Source: a virus. From it: a stretch of 38,618 nucleotides of DNA. This document shows positions 3,875-38,618 of the stretch, piece by piece. Positions within the stretch are counted from its first letter, which is position 1; each line of letters starts with the position of its first letter. The stretch spans positions 1 through 38,618 of IMG/VR virus record IMGVR_UViG_3300033148_002826. One strand, written 5' to 3'. Position numbers and translations under genes: made by a program. The notes beneath the pieces are model-generated. The model searched no databases and was not told the origin of the DNA. It was given only the letters and a program-made list of their open reading frames with translations.

Positions 3875-4750
3875 ATGGCTTTACGATCAATACAAAGAAA
3901 TAAAAAGATTCCTAAAAAAGAGAAACAAAAAGAATTTTCTGATGCTCTTATTCGTGAGGAGGATCAACTTAAAATAATGAAACAAGAAGAAAAAGATAGA
4001 GATGATGTATTATTAGGTCAACAAGAATGGCTTGAACAGAATGAAGATGAGTTAGAAGTATTGAATGAGTCTTTAATTAAAAGGGAAAAAGAATTAAATG
4101 AATTAGCAGAGCAAAAGAATGAATTAGCTAAAAAGATAGGTGGATTAGAAGAACAATATAAATTAGGTGTAAAAAATGTTGAATTTAATGTTAATAAGAT
4201 ACTTCAAGAAAAATATAAAGACATCAAAGAAAAAGAAGACAAAATAGATTCTTTAGAAAGAAGTAAAGAAGTAATTTTAGATACTGTTAATGTTTTAAAA
4301 GGAGATTTAGAAAAATTAGGAAAAGATGAATATGAGTTATCTGAATCTATCGCTGATAAAAGAAACTTGTTAGAAGGACTTAACTATGACATCAAAGGAA
4401 AACTTGAAGAAATTAAAAAATTAGAATCTAAGGGTGAAAAATTAAATGTCAAAGAAAGTGATTTAGATAAAATATATAATGAATTAAAAACGCTTGACAA
4501 TAAGAAAGTTCAAGTTTTAAAAACATTAGAAGAATCAAAGAAAGAAATTGAAAAATTAGATGCTATAAAAGAAAAGAAACTCGGAGAAGTAACTGAAAGA
4601 GAAGCTAAAATTGAAAAAGAACAGGAACGATTAGATAACAGAGAAAAGTTTTTAAAGGAAGAAGAAGAAAGAATTACTAAAATTGGTAAGACAATTCAAA
4701 AACATTCAGATAAACACAACTTGGGTATTAATATTAATTTTGATTTATGA
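3875..4750 (+). CDS. Long coiled-coil protein
   Basis: 291 residues dominated by Glu, Lys and Leu with heptad-like spacing from about residue 20 to 275. Several long uninterrupted helical stretches end in a short IGKTIQKHSDKHNLGININF tail. There are no membrane segments and no catalytic motifs. It lies between two beta-rich virion proteins. Coiled-coil proteins of this kind can be fibre shafts, assembly chaperones or internal proteins; the sequence does not decide between these. A tape-measure role is unlikely because it is short and has no hydrophobic segments. Confidence 0.55.
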   Translation: MALRSIQRNKKIPKKEKQKEFSDALIREEDQLKIMKQEEKDRDDVLLGQQEWLEQNEDELEVLNESLIKREKELNELAEQKNELAKKIGGLEEQYKLGVKNVEFNVNKILQEKYKDIKEKEDKIDSLERSKEVILDTVNVLKGDLEKLGKDEYELSESIADKRNLLEGLNYDIKGKLEEIKKLESKGEKLNVKESDLDKIYNELKTLDNKKVQVLKTLEESKKEIEKLDAIKEKKLGEVTEREAKIEKEQERLDNREKFLKEEEERITKIGKTIQKHSDKHNLGININFDL

Positions 4751-4753
4751 AAA

Positions 4754-5029
4754 ATGGCAAGAACAGAAGCATCAAAAATAACTCAATCGTTAGAAGATGG
4801 AACATTTTTCGTAGATAAAGAAACTCCAGTTGGAGCTATAAATGGTGTAAATACGAGTTTTACTTTAGCAAACACGCCAAATCCTTCTATCTCATTAAGA
4901 GTAAAGGTTAATGGTGTTGACATGTTATTAACAACAGATTATTCAATAATAGGGGATACTTTAACCATGGTTGTAGCACCTCGTTCAGGTGAATCTATAC
5001 GAGTATGGTACAGAGTTGAACCAGTATAA
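4754..5029 (+). CDS. Small beta-rich virion protein
   Basis: 91 residues. After a polar N-terminus comes a pattern of short strands, ETPVGAINGVNTSFTLANTP then VNGVDMLLTTDYSIIGDTL, ending in ESIRVWYRV. This motif order (GxxNGVNxxFTLxxxP, VNGVxxxxxxDYxxxGxxI, RVWYR) is common in phage baseplate, fibre-adaptor and collar proteins as a small beta domain. It is followed after 4 bases by the anchored fibre-like protein, so it may connect fibre to capsid or tail. No enzymatic motif is seen. Confidence 0.6.
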   Translation: MARTEASKITQSLEDGTFFVDKETPVGAINGVNTSFTLANTPNPSISLRVKVNGVDMLLTTDYSIIGDTLTMVVAPRSGESIRVWYRVEPV

Positions 5030-18185: not shown

Positions 18186-19145
18186 ATGTTTTTACTAGAT
18201 TTAATTAGAAAATGGTTTAAAAAAGAATACGGAACTGGACTTTTAGAAGATCCAATAGATTACAGGGACATATCAATGTCAGCAGTCAGTAAAAAGGAAT
18301 CCCCATTACCAGAGAGTTATACAATTCCTTATGTATTAGGAGTTAAAAAACAAGGTAGTGATCCAATATGTGTAGGTTGCTCAACATCTAGTTTAAAAGA
18401 AAACAAGGAACGAATAGAAGGAAACTTTATAGATTTTGATGCTTGGTGGTTGTATTCTGAATGTAAGAAGTCAGATGGTATGCCAGATTACCCAGGTACA
18501 TACTTTCGTAGTGGTCTTAAAGTCCTTCAGAAGATAGGTTGTAAGCCAGTAGACGGCGTTGTAAGCGATGAATATCGCATAGGTGGATATATCAGGGTCC
18601 CTTGTGATTACAAGAGCTTAAAACGGGCAATTTACGAATTTGGCGGAGTTCTTATAGGTTTTAAAGGAAGCAACAAAGGTTGGAAGTCAGCATATATACG
18701 ACCTCCTAAATCAGGGGAACATCAGTGGGGTCATGCTGTTTATGCTGTAGGATATGATAAAGAATATATAACTATACAAAATTCATGGGGCAAACATTGG
18801 GGTAAAAAAGGATACGGATATTTTAATGAAAAGTATTTACCTTTTTCGGCGTGGGCAATAGTTAATGATCTTCCTAATAATTGGAAAGAGCTACTTAAAA
18901 AACCAGAGAAACCAAAATATGAATTCATTAATAATCTTTACAAAGGATTACAGAATGAAGAAGTAAAGATTTTACAAGATTGTCTTAATTATCTTGGATG
19001 TATGAATTATAAAAGCACAGGATATTTTGGATCATTAACTTTTCAGGCTGTAAAAAACTTTCAAATAAGATATAATATATTTCCTCGTAGTGGTTTTGTC
19101 GGACCACTAACAAGGGAAAAATTAAATAATCAATTTAACAAATAA
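18186..19145 (+). CDS. Papain-like peptidase lysin with PG-binding domain
   Basis: 319 residues. Residues about 40-228 form a papain-fold (C1) cysteine peptidase: oxyanion Gln56 in KKQGSDPICVGCSTSS, catalytic Cys65, His183 in QWGHAVYAVGYD, and Asn199 in the IQNSWG motif. Residues about 250-319 are a peptidoglycan-binding type 1 domain (LYKGLQNEEVKILQDCLNYL, GYFGSLTFQAVKNFQ, GPLTREKLN). This combination suggests an endolysin that cuts peptide cross-links in peptidoglycan. There is no signal peptide; the basic N-terminus (LIRKWFKKEY) is amphipathic. It is followed 2 bases later by a holin-like gene. The start has the AAATAATAATATG leader and no Shine-Dalgarno. Confidence 0.8.
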   Translation: MFLLDLIRKWFKKEYGTGLLEDPIDYRDISMSAVSKKESPLPESYTIPYVLGVKKQGSDPICVGCSTSSLKENKERIEGNFIDFDAWWLYSECKKSDGMPDYPGTYFRSGLKVLQKIGCKPVDGVVSDEYRIGGYIRVPCDYKSLKRAIYEFGGVLIGFKGSNKGWKSAYIRPPKSGEHQWGHAVYAVGYDKEYITIQNSWGKHWGKKGYGYFNEKYLPFSAWAIVNDLPNNWKELLKKPEKPKYEFINNLYKGLQNEEVKILQDCLNYLGCMNYKSTGYFGSLTFQAVKNFQIRYNIFPRSGFVGPLTREKLNNQFNK

Positions 19146-19587: not shown

Positions 19588-20256
19588 ATGTATAAAAACA
19601 AAGAGAAAGAAAAACAGAACAAAAAAAAATGGTATCAAAAAAATAAAAAAAAGGTAAAAGAAAAAATTAAGAAATGGCGTTTAAAAAATAGAGAAAAACA
19701 TAATAAATATAATAGACAATGGTACCAAAAAAACAGAGAAAAAATACTTCAGAAACAGAGAAAATATCGTCAGGAAAATAAAGGAAAGATGAAGATATTT
19801 GATAGAAAACGATATCAAAAGAACAAAGAAAAAAAAATAAAGCAAGGAATAATATATGAAAAAAAACGAAGAGATACAGATCCGAAATATCGTTTAGATG
19901 ACAATGTTGGATCTTATATTCGTCATAGTTTAAAAGGTAAAAAAGCAGGTAAAAGGTGGAAAATTTTAGTAAATTTTACATTAGAAGATTTAATGAAACA
20001 TCTTGAAAGTCAATTTGATAAAAATATGTCTTGGGATAATTATGGTAATTATTGGGTGATTGATCACATAAAACCAAGAAGTTTATTTAATTATACAACC
20101 CCAGAAGATCAAGAATTTAAAGAGTGTTGGGCGTTGAATAATCTTCAGCCATTAGAAAAAATTGAGAATATTAAAAAATCTAATCATTTTGATGAGAAGG
20201 AAGAAGGCGAGAAAACGCCTGAAACTCCAGAGGGAGAAGAAGAAGAAGCTGAGTGA
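19588..20256 (+). CDS. HNH endonuclease with Lys-rich N-terminus
   Basis: 222 residues. Residues 1-95 are extremely Lys/Arg/Asn/Gln-rich with a repeated KWYQKN / QWYQKN / KRYQKN motif, a DNA-binding style array. The HNH domain lies about residues 130-200: WVIDHIKPRSLF, then CWALNNLQPLEKIENIKKSN, matching the DH..P..N.L.PL..N pattern. The C-terminus (EEGEKTPETPEGEEEEAE) is acidic and resembles the end of the protein at 19350. Free-standing HNH proteins of this kind are common mobile nucleases. It starts just after the terminator, so it has either its own promoter or read-through expression. Confidence 0.75.
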   Translation: MYKNKEKEKQNKKKWYQKNKKKVKEKIKKWRLKNREKHNKYNRQWYQKNREKILQKQRKYRQENKGKMKIFDRKRYQKNKEKKIKQGIIYEKKRRDTDPKYRLDDNVGSYIRHSLKGKKAGKRWKILVNFTLEDLMKHLESQFDKNMSWDNYGNYWVIDHIKPRSLFNYTTPEDQEFKECWALNNLQPLEKIENIKKSNHFDEKEEGEKTPETPEGEEEEAE

Positions 20257-26101: not shown

Positions 26102-26872
26102 ATGAAAACATACACAATCAAAAAACCAAAAGACCTAGAAAAGTTCAAAGATGATTATGGATATAATGTAGATGGCAATCTTGAATTAGAATGTGGCATT
26201 GATATTGAGGGTAGATTAAGGGCAGATGGATATATATTGAGTAAAGCTGGATACTCTATTGAAGCTGGAGACTTCATTGAAGCTGGAGACTTCATTAAAG
26301 CTGAAGACTTCATTAAAGCTGGAGGCTCTATTGAAGCTGGAGGCTTCATTAAAGCTGGAGGCTCTATTGAAGCTGGAGACTTCATTGAAGCTGGATACTC
26401 TATTAAAGCTGGAGGCTCTATTAAAGCTGGAGGCTCTATTAAAGCTGGAGGCTCTATTGAAGCTGGAGGCTCTATTGAAGCTGGAGGCTCTATTGAAGCT
26501 GGAGACTTCATTAAAGCTGGATGCTCTATTGAAGCTGGAGACTCTATTAAAGCTGGAGACTTCATTGAAGCTGAAGGCTCTATTGAAGCTGGAGGCTCTA
26601 TTGAAGCTGGAGACTCCTGTGGAATATCAGCAGGACTATCAATTATTTGTAAAACAACTTTATCATTTGGTTTAAACGCATATGCTGGAATAAAAACTTG
26701 GGGAGAAGCAACAGATGAAGACAAAACAATAACTTGCGGAAAACTATTAAAAGGGAATATAGAATATGGTATTTTAAGAGAAACAGGATTATCAGATGAA
26801 CCAGAAACAGGCAAAAAAGTAAAGATTAAGCTAGATAATAATCAAGTCGTAGAGGGAATAATAATAAAATAA
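26102..26872 (+). CDS. Hexapeptide-repeat left-handed solenoid protein
   Basis: 256 residues. Residues 52-171 are 20 tandem hexads of the type S/F-I-E/K-A-G-G/D, fitting a left-handed parallel beta-helix (I at every sixth place, small A two places later). The N-terminal cap begins MKTYTIKKPKDLEKFKDD. The C-terminal region (SFGLNAYAGIKTWGEATDED) continues the solenoid irregularly and ends in a small beta domain. Such hexad proteins form trimers or filaments, as in bactofilin-like and acyltransferase folds, but no catalytic His is evident. The near-identical DNA repeats suggest recent expansion. Function unknown. Confidence 0.65.
   Translation: MKTYTIKKPKDLEKFKDDYGYNVDGNLELECGIDIEGRLRADGYILSKAGYSIEAGDFIEAGDFIKAEDFIKAGGSIEAGGFIKAGGSIEAGDFIEAGYSIKAGGSIKAGGSIKAGGSIEAGGSIEAGGSIEAGDFIKAGCSIEAGDSIKAGDFIEAEGSIEAGGSIEAGDSCGISAGLSIICKTTLSFGLNAYAGIKTWGEATDEDKTITCGKLLKGNIEYGILRETGLSDEPETGKKVKIKLDNNQVVEGIIIK
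26255..26614. repeat. 20 tandem 18-base repeats in the hexapeptide gene
   Basis: Units like TCTATTGAAGCTGGAGGC repeat about 20 times with few changes (TCT/TTC, GAA/AAA, GGC/GAC). Because 18 is divisible by 3 and the unit lacks stops, one other plus frame and one minus frame stay open through the array too. Such arrays change length easily by slippage. Confidence 0.95.
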
Positions 26873-32002: not shown

Positions 32003-32040
32003 AAGATCAAATAACATTATTAGATGGTATGTGGGATTAA
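31999..32040 (+). CDS. Tiny frame before the small terminase
   Basis: 13 residues, MKDQITLLDGMWD. It begins by ATGA overlap with the basic peptide gene and ends 2 bases before the terminase small subunit start, so it may only serve translational coupling. Confidence 0.3.
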   Translation: MKDQITLLDGMWD

Positions 32041-32042
32041 AT

Positions 32043-32528
32043 ATGTCAGAAGAAACTACACAAGAAAAAGAGAATGATGTCAACGATAAAGCAGGGAGCA
32101 ATCAGGGAGAATATAAGGTAGGAGATAAAAAGCCACCTAAAGAACATCGGTTTAAAAAGGGTCAATCAGGAAACCCAAAAGGAAAGCCGAAAGGAACATT
32201 ATCAGTTGTAGCAGCACTTAAAAAGAAATTACAGGAAATACCAGACGATCCAAGTAATAAAGAAAGACGATCATATTTAGATATTCTTATTTTAAAGATA
32301 ATAAAGAAAGCAATAACTGGTGAAGATGTGGCAATGATAAAAGATATAATAGATAGAGTAGATGGAAAACCAAAGCAACCAATAGAAGCAGATATAAGTT
32401 TAACATCTCAGGCAAAAGAAGGCGCAGAAAAATTAAATGATTTAATAAATGACCTTACAGGAGAAACAAAAGAAACTAGCAAAGAATCTACTAAAGTTAT
32501 TCCAGATAGACGGGAAACCAGCAAATGA
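32043..32528 (+). CDS. terS: Terminase small subunit-like (DUF5681)
   Basis: 161 residues from the ATG at 32043; a GTG start at 32031 would add four residues. KKPPKEHRFKKGQSGNPKGK (about 29-48) is the hallmark of DUF5681 proteins encoded next to large terminases, followed by helical regions (SVVAALKKKLQEIP; DILILKIIKKAI) and a disordered, Thr/Ser/Glu-rich end. It would recognise the packaging site and load DNA onto the large subunit. It overlaps the large terminase frame by 80 bases in another frame, which is long for a phage. Confidence 0.7.
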   Translation: MSEETTQEKENDVNDKAGSNQGEYKVGDKKPPKEHRFKKGQSGNPKGKPKGTLSVVAALKKKLQEIPDDPSNKERRSYLDILILKIIKKAITGEDVAMIKDIIDRVDGKPKQPIEADISLTSQAKEGAEKLNDLINDLTGETKETSKESTKVIPDRRETSK

Positions 32529-34830
32529 AGCAATAACAGAAGGTCAGTTAGATATATTTAGTTCATTGATATTTAGAAACAAGAATAGAGTTCAGATTAT
32601 AACTTCTACTCAATATGGAAAGCTAATAGCTAATGATGTTCCAGTTTGGACTAATAAAGGATGGAAAAAACATGGAGAATTAAAAGTAGGAGATTATGTT
32701 TTTAACCATTTAGGAAAAAGAGTCAAAATAATAGTAATAGGAGAAAAGCAGTTTGCTAATAAAGAAGTAATTTTTACAAATGGAGAAAAGATAAAATGTC
32801 ATGAAAATCATGAATGGATTGTTTGGAATGAAAATTGGGATGAATATAAAGTGATTCAAACCAATGAGATAGAAAAATATAAAATAATAATGTCAATTCC
32901 TAAGGTTAAACCCTTAGAAGGAAAAGGAGAATTAGACATTGATCCATATTTTTTAGGAGCTTGGTTGGGAGATGGAACATCAAAAAAGCCATCAATAACA
33001 ATACATCCAAATGATAAAGACATTATTGATAGAATACCATATAAATTATCAGCAGTTCATATTCATAAAATAACAGGAATAAAAACATTTGAATTTTACA
33101 AAAATGGATTATTAGACAGATTAAGAGAGAATAATTTATATAATAATAAGCACATTCCATTAAAATATAAGTTAGCTTCGTTGAAAGATAGATTGGAATT
33201 ATTAGCTGGTTTAATAGATACTGATGGATCGGTTAATAAGGATTATAGAGAAAAAGGATGGAAAAATGGTAGAGTATATATAATAAATACTAATAAAATT
33301 TTAATTGATGATGTTAGAGATATAATTCACGGACTGGGGATAAGAACAAGCATAACAAAAGTTAAAGCGTGTAAATCATCAAGTGGAATACAAGGAAAAA
33401 AGGATGTATATTATTTAGGATTTCAACCCAACATAAATATACCAACAGTTCTTTTAAGAAAAAAAGTAAATTATAGAGAAAGTAAACGAAGTATTAGAAT
33501 TAAAGAAATAATAGACATAGAGTCAGAGAGTGGTAATTGTATTCAGGTTGAAGGGGGAATATATCTTGTAGGTAAGACAATGATTCCTACTCATAATTCT
33601 TTAATAACAGCATTAGCTTGTTTAGTAATCAGTTGTATTCAGAAAGAGTTAGTAGCAGTAGTAGCTCCTAACAAAGAAAAAGCAAAGATAATAATGCGAT
33701 ACTATATTGAGCATTTATCAGATAATCCTGTATTTTGGTCACAGCTTGAAAAGAATACAAAGCTTGAAAGATTAAGACAAGAGGAGAGCAAAGAGCGTAT
33801 TATACTAAACAACGAAGGAGGTATATTCGTTGTATCAGCTCAAGCAGGAAACGCTGTAAAAGGAGTAGAATCTGCTATGGGAGAAGGTGCTAAAATAGTT
33901 ATTCAAGATGAGAGTTGTTTAATCCCCGATCAGACAGAGTCTTCAATTTATCGTATGATTGCTGGATACAAAGATGGATTCTATTGTAAGATCGGAAACC
34001 CTTTTTATAGAAATCACTTTTTAAAGAGTTGGAGAAGTGAAAAGTATCAAAAGATATTTATTGATTATTTCCAAGGTTTAAAAGAAGGTAGATATACACA
34101 AGAGTTTATTGAAGAAGCAAAAAAGAAACCGAACTTTGATATATTATTTGGTTGTAAGTTCCCTGACGCAGATATGATAGATCAGAAAGGATATTCTGTA
34201 TTGTTAGCAGAAAGTGATATTAAACAAGGTGAAGTTAATCCTTTTGGAGAAATACGAATGGGAGTTGATGTAGCAGAAGGAGGAGGAAATTATAATGTAA
34301 TCGTTTTAAGATGGGATAATACAGCTAAAGTAGTTCTTAAATATCAATCAGAGAATACAATGGATTTAGTTGGTAGAATTATTCAGATCGGAAATGAATA
34401 CGATATTTTGCCAGATAACATTTTTGTAGATTCAATAGGAGTAGGAAAAGGAGTTTGTGATCGTTTAGAAGAAAATTATAATAAAAAAGTAAGAACAATT
34501 AACGGAGTTAAAGTATCAGAAAAAGCTCAAGATTCAAAGCTTTACTTTAATAAAAGAGCAGAGAATTACTGGAGATTAAGACAATGGATTAAACAAGGAG
34601 CGATATTAGAACCCAATAATGACTGGAATCAATTAGAAGACATTAAGTATAAAGTAAAAGATAGTTCAGGACAATTATTGATAATGCCCAAAGATGAAAT
34701 GAGGAAAGAAGGTTATGAGAGTCCTGATATTGCTGACGCTTTAATGCTTACATTTTCAAGAATAGACTTTTCAGGAGGTAAAGTAGTAACAAATAGAGTA
34801 AAACCTCCTTCAACTTATAAAAAACGCTGA
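32449..34830 (+). CDS. terL: Terminase large subunit, interrupted by an intein
   Basis: 793 residues, of which 325 (59-383) are an intein, leaving a 468-residue terminase, a normal length. The Walker A motif reads STQYGK at 53-58 and continues with S384 LITALACL after the intein. Walker B is AKIVIQDES. The C-terminal nuclease has MGVDVAEGGGNYNVIVLRWD, DNIFVDSIGVGKGVCDRL and YESPDIADALMLTF. It packages DNA into the prohead using ATP and cuts it. Without splicing the ATPase site would be broken, so protein splicing is required. The first 26 codons overlap the small subunit gene. Confidence 0.9.
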   Translation: MTLQEKQKKLAKNLLKLFQIDGKPANEAITEGQLDIFSSLIFRNKNRVQIITSTQYGKLIANDVPVWTNKGWKKHGELKVGDYVFNHLGKRVKIIVIGEKQFANKEVIFTNGEKIKCHENHEWIVWNENWDEYKVIQTNEIEKYKIIMSIPKVKPLEGKGELDIDPYFLGAWLGDGTSKKPSITIHPNDKDIIDRIPYKLSAVHIHKITGIKTFEFYKNGLLDRLRENNLYNNKHIPLKYKLASLKDRLELLAGLIDTDGSVNKDYREKGWKNGRVYIINTNKILIDDVRDIIHGLGIRTSITKVKACKSSSGIQGKKDVYYLGFQPNINIPTVLLRKKVNYRESKRSIRIKEIIDIESESGNCIQVEGGIYLVGKTMIPTHNSLITALACLVISCIQKELVAVVAPNKEKAKIIMRYYIEHLSDNPVFWSQLEKNTKLERLRQEESKERIILNNEGGIFVVSAQAGNAVKGVESAMGEGAKIVIQDESCLIPDQTESSIYRMIAGYKDGFYCKIGNPFYRNHFLKSWRSEKYQKIFIDYFQGLKEGRYTQEFIEEAKKKPNFDILFGCKFPDADMIDQKGYSVLLAESDIKQGEVNPFGEIRMGVDVAEGGGNYNVIVLRWDNTAKVVLKYQSENTMDLVGRIIQIGNEYDILPDNIFVDSIGVGKGVCDRLEENYNKKVRTINGVKVSEKAQDSKLYFNKRAENYWRLRQWIKQGAILEPNNDWNQLEDIKYKVKDSSGQLLIMPKDEMRKEGYESPDIADALMLTFSRIDFSGGKVVTNRVKPPSTYKKR
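32623..33597 (+). mobile_element. Class 3 intein with LAGLIDADG endonuclease
   Basis: 325 residues between K58 and S384 of the terminase. It begins LIANDVPVWTNKGWKKHGEL, with no Cys, Ser or Ala at position 1. Block B is KIKCHENHEWIV with Trp123; block F is NCIQVEGGIYLVG with Cys364; block G is IPTHN with Thr381, His382 and Asn383, then Ser384. This W-C-T triplet is the signature of class 3 inteins, where the block F Cys starts splicing. Two endonuclease motifs are present, YFLGAWLGDGT (167-177) and LLAGLIDTDGS (251-261), with intact acidic residues. It is probably an active homing element. Confidence 0.9.
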
Positions 34831-34837
34831 AACATGA

Positions 34838-36781
34838 ATGATAATCAATTTAGAATTACAAAAAGATAAAAAAGGTAATGTTGTTTCAGAACCTTCAAAT
34901 TATAATCCTTCAAAAGAGGTAAAAAAGATTACGGCACAAGTAATGAAAGACTTTGATGCGTCTGATAAGATAATGAGTCAGCCATACAGAGAGTTTAATG
35001 ATATTAGTTTAAGAGATAGACAATCAAGAGATCAGATGGCTTTTAATAACTTTGAGCCATTCTCAAGTAGTAATCCAGATGAAGAATGGAGATCAACAGC
35101 TATCAGACCTATTACTCGTAATAAGATAATTAGTATAGCTGCTCATGTAACGGGAAACTTAATCTTTCCAAAGATATTCGCACAGAATGATCAAGATCAA
35201 GAAGATAGAGATGCTGCTTCAGTAATGAGGACTTTAATGGAATGGGTAGGAGATATATCAGATTACGAAAGAACCTTTTTATACGCAGTAATAGCTGCTT
35301 TAGTAAATCCTGCTACGATTATACACACAGAGTTTACTAAAGTAATGCGTAAAGTTAAGACTAAGAATGCTAACGGAGAAATTTCAGAACCTAAAGAAGT
35401 CTTAGATGAAGAGCTTTCAGGATTTCACGATACATTAGTTCCTATTGATGAGTTATGGATAGAGAATATCTATGAGAATAAGATCCAAAGACAAGGACAT
35501 TTAATCTGGAGAAAGGTAATTGATTATAGTTTGGCTCAAGTAAAGTATGGTAATAATAAAAACTTTAAAGAGTTTGTAAAACCAGGACTTCAAATATTAC
35601 TAGGAGATAATAAGGATACCTTTTACGAGCAATATGACGAAGATTTACAAGATCGTTTAGTAGAAGAAATTATATATTATAATCGTCAGTTAGACTTACA
35701 GTTAGTATATGTCAATGGAATACTACTTACTGAACCAGATGAACCAAACCCAAGACTAGACAAGAAATACCCGTTTGCTAAAAGTGGATATGAGTTAATT
35801 GATGAAGGAAAGTTCTTTTATTATAAGTCGTCTGCGTTTAAAACAGCTCCTGACGCAGATGTAGTAGATGTTTTATATAGAATGATTATAGATGGAACAT
35901 ATCTTCAATTAATGCCTCCAGTAGCAGCAATTGGTAATGAAGAGGTAGATTCTTCAATATTAATGCCTGGAACAATAACCACTATTAAAGATAAAGAAAC
36001 CAGAATAGAAAAAATAGACCTAGGAAATGATCTAGTAGCAGGATTTAATGCTCTTGAAAAAGTAGAATCAAGTGTAAGTGAGAGTTCCCAAGATCCACAG
36101 CAATCTGGTATTCCATCACCACAACAGCAAACAGCGTTTGAAATATCTAGATTAGAACAGAATGCTCGTATTCAGTTAGGTTTATTCGGTAAGATGATAG
36201 GTTTTCTTATTAAGGATTTCGGAGAGTTAAGAATATCTGATATTATACAACATCTAACAATAGGAGAGCTTAAAGGAATAACTGGAGATACTGATACTTT
36301 AAAGTTTAGAAGTTTCTTGATCCCTGAAAAAGAAGGATTGGATTCTAAGAGAGTAACAATGACTACTGAAGTTTCAGATGAACTACTTTCTCCAGAAGAG
36401 CAGTTAGATGAAAGTTTTAAAGTAATGGAAGAAGAAGGAGGATTAGAAAGCAAAGACAGGATATTTAAAGTTAATCCTTCATTATTCAGAGAGTTAAAGT
36501 TTTTAGTAAGGATTTCTCCAGATATAGTATTTCCACCATCAGAGAATGTTAAGAAAGCATTAATGTTAGAGCAGTATGATAGAGCTGTTAATAATCCTTT
36601 AGCAGATCAAGAGAACATATTTAAAGAGTTGTTACTAGGAGCATATTCAACCACTAGAGATAATCCAGACAAGTTTGTGGCTAAACAAGCCACAGGTACT
36701 TTAGAAGGAGGTCAGAAAGGAGTATTAAGTCGTATAACAGGGGCAGAGCGTCCCGAAACATCAGAAGTATTAACTAAATAA
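34838..36781 (+). CDS. Portal protein
   Basis: 647 residues, directly after the large terminase. Start chosen at 34838; an ATG 4 bases earlier gives only 10 codons. The N-terminus is polar (EVKKITAQVMKDFDASDKIM), then REFNDISLRDRQSRDQMAFN and a helix-rich body. Residues about 345-390 (VVDVLYRMIIDGTYLQLMPP, AAIGNEEVDSSILMPGTITT) and the Gln-rich stretch SSQDPQQSGIPSPQQQTAFE, just before a long helix, are typical of portal clip and wing regions. It forms the ring through which DNA enters. Family by layout and position. Confidence 0.75.
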   Translation: MIINLELQKDKKGNVVSEPSNYNPSKEVKKITAQVMKDFDASDKIMSQPYREFNDISLRDRQSRDQMAFNNFEPFSSSNPDEEWRSTAIRPITRNKIISIAAHVTGNLIFPKIFAQNDQDQEDRDAASVMRTLMEWVGDISDYERTFLYAVIAALVNPATIIHTEFTKVMRKVKTKNANGEISEPKEVLDEELSGFHDTLVPIDELWIENIYENKIQRQGHLIWRKVIDYSLAQVKYGNNKNFKEFVKPGLQILLGDNKDTFYEQYDEDLQDRLVEEIIYYNRQLDLQLVYVNGILLTEPDEPNPRLDKKYPFAKSGYELIDEGKFFYYKSSAFKTAPDADVVDVLYRMIIDGTYLQLMPPVAAIGNEEVDSSILMPGTITTIKDKETRIEKIDLGNDLVAGFNALEKVESSVSESSQDPQQSGIPSPQQQTAFEISRLEQNARIQLGLFGKMIGFLIKDFGELRISDIIQHLTIGELKGITGDTDTLKFRSFLIPEKEGLDSKRVTMTTEVSDELLSPEEQLDESFKVMEEEGGLESKDRIFKVNPSLFRELKFLVRISPDIVFPPSENVKKALMLEQYDRAVNNPLADQENIFKELLLGAYSTTRDNPDKFVAKQATGTLEGGQKGVLSRITGAERPETSEVLTK

Positions 36782-38193: not shown

Positions 38194-38618
38194 ATGGCTG
38201 AAATACAAGATAAGGGGTCTTTAAAAGACGCAGACGAAACTGCTACTTCTCCAGCCCCAGAGGAGGAAACAAACAAAGATGATTCAAAGCTCGGTAAGGA
38301 CGAGTCTAAACTAACAGAATCATCTCAAAACGCTGATGATGCTGGAAGTTCAGAAGCACCAGATGATCCAGTCGTACCATCTGATGATATTGACTACGAG
38401 GCAGAGTACGAAGACGAAAAACAAAAGAGAATAAAAGCTGAAAAGGCTATTGTTAAGCTTAAAAAGCTAAACAAGTCTGACGGTGACGATGAAGATAGTC
38501 CTTTAACTTCTGAAATTATCCAAGAAACCATTAAAAGTGAATTGGATAAGGTTGAAGCACAAAAAGCTGAAGACTTAGTTGACAGCTTTATAGAGGAAAT
38601 GTCTAGTGATGAAAACGA
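38194..38618 (+). CDS. Scaffold-like acidic head protein, N-terminal part
   Basis: Starts at the ATG at 38194 (after CATTAATCTT) and runs off the window; the rest is at 1-433, in the same frame. The N-terminus (MAEIQDKGSLKDADETATSP) and the region up to about residue 75 are disordered and rich in Asp, Glu, Ser and Pro. A helix follows (DEKQKRIKAEKAIVKLKKLN). A long acidic disordered start and a helical end are usual for scaffolding proteins. Expression probably depends on passing the terminator at 38138. Confidence 0.6.
   Translation, partial: MAEIQDKGSLKDADETATSPAPEEETNKDDSKLGKDESKLTESSQNADDAGSSEAPDDPVVPSDDIDYEAEYEDEKQKRIKAEKAIVKLKKLNKSDGDDEDSPLTSEIIQETIKSELDKVEAQKAEDLVDSFIEEMSSDEN
38505..38618. 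repeat. Direct terminal repeat (right copy)
   Basis: Identical to 1-114. It most likely reflects the overlap of a circular contig rather than a true terminal repeat, because it lies within a gene and is very short. Confidence 0.95.

Follow-up and report, generated by a model that had tools for sequence, protein, structure and literature searches.

The class 3 intein signature, Trp in block B (B:12), Cys in block F (F:4) and Thr in block G (G:5), abbreviated WCT, is used here as defined in earlier work (PMC5222942, PMC3196547, PMC7664689). Inteins interrupting the P-loop of the large terminase subunit (TerL) of mycobacteriophages, as well as class 3 TerL inteins, have already been published, and several of the mycobacteriophage TerL inteins splice while two cut empty alleles (PMC5050341). 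These elements, TerL1-a to TerL1-e, are located in the ATPase domain, where TerL1-a occupies the same P-loop position as the intein described here, between Lys and Thr (PMC5050341); among the matches listed, they share about 25-31% identity with it. The Mycobacterium DnaB mini-inteins 6bs8 and 6rix have the class 3 splicing domain and the catalytic residues in common with our intein, but they lack an endonuclease domain and their host protein is DnaB.

The DNA analyzed in this study, referred to as the window, is a viral stretch of 38,618 nucleotides. A preliminary description, prepared from the sequence alone, proposed that the Walker A motif of its TerL is split by a class 3 intein. The follow-up analysis supports this proposal, and we estimate at roughly 96% the probability that the insert is a class 3 intein equipped with a homing endonuclease of the LAGLIDADG type, placed in the TerL Walker A loop of a tailed virus. 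This assignment is based on observed and computed properties: the insertion itself, its signature, fold and relatives, the empty sites of related genes, and the unrelated terminases that also carry the intein. The TerL reading frame (793 codons) is open throughout, and a match to the terminase large subunit family PHROG 2 (E 4.5e-22) was obtained for the C-extein. The insertion point lies between the Lys and Ser of Walker A (TQYGK/S, where the slash marks the junction). All of the numbers given earlier hold, i.e. an insert of 325 residues, a 468-residue terminase after joining of the exteins (58 + 410) and Asn383 of the precursor, which is residue 325 of the intein. The GC content of the intein is 27.4%, compared with 32.0% for the C-extein. 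Features of the locus, together with those of a related subgroup discussed below, are summarized in Table 1.

Table 1. Features of the TerL locus (window coordinates) and of inteins with Ser at F:4 (coordinates of the named loci)
Feature	Position	Strand	Basis
DUF5681 gene, upstream; candidate small terminase by placement only	32031..32528	+	
TerL precursor gene, 793 aa with intein	32449..34830	+	ORF; PHROG 2 match of C-extein
N-extein, 58 aa, ending in TSTQYGK (first part of Walker A)	32449..32622	+	
Class 3 intein, 325 aa (325 codons, in frame)	32623..33597	+	
Intein position 1, Leu, non-nucleophile	32623..32625	+	
Block B His63-Glu-Trp65 (B:10 His; B:12 Trp of WCT)	32809..32817	+	
First LAGLIDADG motif, DPYFLGAWLGDG	32941..32976	+	
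Second LAGLIDADG motif, RLELLAGLIDTDG (LLAGLIDTDG)	33190..33228	+	Pfam, alignment of relatives
Cys306 (F:4); predicted nucleophile of the first step and first branch point	33538..33540	+	
Thr323 (G:5), His324 and Asn325 (cyclising Asn)	33589..33597	+	
C-extein, 410 aa, from Ser+1 (last Walker A residue); remaining ATPase and nuclease domain	33598..34827	+	
Portal/connector-like gene, downstream; PHROG 332 (connector)	34838..36781	+	
Ser-F:4 intein, L048	224-1231		
Ser-F:4 intein, L046	1157-2164		
Ser-F:4 intein, L068	2998-4002		

Terminases of this family that lack the intein (loci L003-L014) contain an uninterrupted TQYGKS, TRYGKS or TRFGKS motif and share 38-53% identity with the C-extein of the window. 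Joining of the window flanks restores Walker A as TQYGKS, and the resulting protein, a member of the TerL family, aligns to these relatives without a gap, residue for residue across the junction. An in-frame, uninterrupted insert could also be a normal terminase domain. However, same-family terminases lack the 325 residues with an exact junction, and the same module is present in unrelated terminases, so this interpretation was ruled out and its probability is negligible.

The set of residues characteristic of class 3 is complete in the intein and comprises Trp65, Cys306 and Thr323, along with His63, His324-Asn325 and Ser+1. A first alignment included 21 homologues (20 phage records and one metagenomic contig). 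The Trp, Cys and Thr originally recognized in HEW, NCIQVE and PTHN aligned as expected and were invariant in 21/21 homologues, a degree of conservation beyond chance. Leu1 was aligned to block A of the same homologues, whose first residue varies among L, E, Q, A, G, D, V, P and S; the alignment places no Cys, Ser or Thr nucleophile at the first position of the window intein.

A profile search of the PDB was topped by the class 3 DnaB inteins 6bs8 (E 5e-19) and 6rix (E 8e-19), with which W65, C306 and T323 align, also in a single-sequence search. The AlphaFold2 model of the intein, built from 40 sequences, has a mean pLDDT of 94.7 and a pTM of 0.91. In model comparisons its splicing domain shows the HINT fold and lies near 6bs8 (Z 20.3, rmsd 1.5 A over 121 residues), while the class 1 inteins gp41-1 (Z 17.9) and Ssp DnaB (Z 16.0) both score below this structure; among the structures listed, no class 1 entry limited to the splicing domain reaches the score of 6bs8. 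The full-length model matches PI-SceI (1jva) with Z 26.7, and the LAGLIDADG endonuclease part resembles that of PI-SceI. Whole-length class 1 intein-endonucleases, PI-SceI and others, score higher because the endonuclease is matched as well. The modelling suggested in the preliminary description yields a class 3-like splicing domain combined with a LAGLIDADG endonuclease. The LAGLIDADG_3 and Hom_end families exceed their Pfam cut-offs, whereas the general Intein_splicing family reaches 18.4 bits, under its curated cut-off of 35.8, so the Pfam library alone would not name an intein at this locus.

A broader survey covered IMG/VR and GTDB contigs, with most loci taken from the best 80 relatives listed, so its counts describe a sample of nearest relatives. 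Among the matches listed, 74 of the 78 distinct inteins are inserted at GK/S or GK/T, and position 1 of these 74 is most often Leu (31), followed by Gln (23), Glu (10) and Ala (5). The suggestion that Leu1 is an oddity was thus not borne out: it is the commonest residue at this position among same-site relatives. The survey patterns were placed in block B and the LAGLIDADG motifs, away from position 1, so Leu was not selected for. It is also found in GK/S or GK/T inteins of cultured phages, namely Gordonia phages Verity and Sampson and Klebsiella phage KP13-7. Such variability (Leu, Gln, Glu, Ala and others) is expected if Cys F:4 performs the first step of splicing. A non-nucleophilic position 1 is common to class 2 and class 3 inteins and would also suit a class 2-like route, with a direct attack of Ser+1 on the N-terminal junction and WCT residues that are there by coincidence. 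We regard this as a very remote alternative: WCT is kept in 82/86 aligned inteins (that of the window and 85 from IMG/VR and GTDB contigs, among the matches listed), mutation of the F:4 Cys blocks splicing in the class 3 inteins tested (PMC5222942), and class 3 structures give the best splicing-domain match among splicing-domain-only entries.

Inteins with the same site and signature are present in the TerLs of Bacteroides, Porphyromonas, Gordonia and Klebsiella phages, and matches spanning at least 80% of the intein were obtained in 442 named-phage records. The TerL intein of Gordonia phages Verity and Sampson shares the GK/S site, WCT, Leu1 and LAGLIDADG motifs with the window intein (approximately 38-39% identity over the full length), but it resides in another terminase, has VHPRHEW instead of CHENHEW in block B, and its block F is two residues longer. 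The inteins of Bacteroides phage B124-14 and Porphyromonas phage005b (41-42% identity) occupy the same site and retain WCT, the CHxxHEW block B and the short block F (NCIQVEGG), but position 1 is Glu or Gln and the terminase differs from that of the window. Closer relatives were distinguished in IMG/VR loci L040, L041 and L001, with 48-57% intein identity at the same site of related terminases; the C-exteins of L040 and L041 are about 40% identical to that of the window (BLASTP), and the L001 intein starts with Glu rather than Leu. The L040 terminase, unlike that of the window, contains another intein farther into the ATPase domain; this one is apparently of class 1, with a Cys start, a His-Asn end followed by Ser, and no LAGLIDADG match. 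The L050 terminase likewise has two inteins, and its second one, also farther into the ATPase domain, includes a LAGLIDADG domain.

The C-exteins of related inteins were compared with the window terminase by BLASTP. Among the matches listed, only 6/81 resemble it (E < 1e-3) and 75/81 do not, although the inteins themselves share 34-56% identity with the window intein. Most of the dissimilar C-exteins that were tested match other terminase families (Terminase_6, T7-type). The presence of related inteins at the same site in terminases without detectable similarity indicates horizontal spread. Judged from these sequence comparisons, one intein lineage holds the same Lys-Ser/Thr codons in terminases sharing little beyond the P-loop.

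A subgroup with Ser in place of Cys at F:4 (W-S-T) was noticed in the survey in the otherwise intact TerL P-loop inteins of L046, L048, L068 and L070 (among the matches listed), and a targeted scan added one further contig, L176; L172-L176 are listed with this subgroup. The Ser codons are TCA and TCT, the frames are open, residue +1 is Thr, and a shared Cys lies six to seven residues upstream of F:4. These inteins form three lineages that are 61-81% identical, and a named-phage search with one of them gave only matches below 60% identity. They may use a different nucleophile, which could be the Ser itself, the Cys that precedes it, or Thr+1 attacking directly.

The splicing pathway of the window intein can be outlined from class 3 homologues that have been studied in experiments. 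Cys306 would form a protease-like triad together with His63 and Thr323, assisted by Trp65, and would attack the Lys(-1)-Leu1 peptide bond, giving a branched thioester. Transfer of the N-extein to Ser+1 and cyclisation of Asn325 would follow, after which an ester-to-amide shift would yield the 468-residue terminase, its GKS loop intact. Since the P-loop of the precursor is split by the intein, packaging should wait for splicing, and we infer, soundly in our opinion, that DNA packaging depends on it. As previously proposed, both LAGLIDADG motifs are intact, with their acidic residues (WLGDG and LIDTDG), and they are kept in the aligned relatives. The endonuclease would be expected to cut intein-free TerL genes at the conserved P-loop codons, with the gap then copied across, but it may be inactive despite the intact motifs. 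Since one class 3 intein is known as a pseudogene (PMC3196547), an intact signature is no proof of splicing. It is nevertheless very improbable that the window contains a decayed intein that has lost splicing and left the terminase non-functional: every catalytic residue and both endonuclease motifs are preserved and retained in close relatives, no codon of the precursor is interrupted, and the C-extein matches its terminase family. Furthermore, a non-splicing copy in the apparently sole TerL of a complete circular genome should vanish fast. We favour a class 3 intein that is predicted to splice.

The window carries an exact 114-bp terminal direct repeat (positions 1-114 and 38505-38618), which suggests that it is probably a complete genome, either circular (approximately 38.5 kb) or terminally redundant. 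It is contig C22 of a 1.2-Mb binned assembly (G000) whose 16S and 23S rRNAs match archaeal models (for the 16S, 1447.8 bits with the archaeal model versus 1112 with the bacterial one). Class 3 inteins in the literature compared come from bacteria and their phages, and infection of the archaeon of this bin, if true, would make the window an archaeal virus with an intein of class 3. We consider this host assignment unlikely, although less so than the alternative readings of the insert discussed above. A circular phage contig is easily mis-binned, which counts against it, and a papain-like peptidase with a peptidoglycan-binding domain (window 18186-19145) points to a bacterial host as the better fit. 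When the window was compared with its own genome by BLASTN, nothing clearly resembling a spacer was matched; the hits were short pieces with low scores and a phage-like stretch shared with contig C38. Terminase relatives in the same archaeal phylum are remote. Intein relatives were sought in 371 genomes of this phylum, but the best full-length matches (G143 and G271) start with Cys and interrupt another P-loop ATPase; they were rejected as class 1, which also argues against an archaeal host.

Several other elements were noted in these genomes. The G143 and G271 loci (L154 and L155), which belong to the same archaeal class, encode a Cys1 LAGLIDADG class 1 intein at GK/S or GK/T in the P-loop of the other ATPase. 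Contig C36 of the bin (about 4149-4883; L017 1072-3012) encodes a Cys1 LAGLIDADG intein of class 1 type just before SGKS of a different P-loop ATPase. An HNH-like gene region of the window (19930-20160) shares 74% DNA identity with positions 11106-11336 of contig C38, and this bin may thus contain a further phage-related contig in C38. Finally, a gene composed of many short repeats (IEAGGSIEAGDFIKAG...) was found at window 26102-26872, where several frames are open on both strands; its product may resemble a beta-helix protein built from repeats.

Related inserts are present in hundreds of phages, in most of the relatives compared at the same site, and the window intein is an ordinary addition to this known group. 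It is a further clear and complete example of the class 3 inteins that are widespread in the TerL P-loop. The freedom at position 1 and the shared site in dissimilar terminases, while unsurprising, are of use for intein engineering and for studies of intein evolution.
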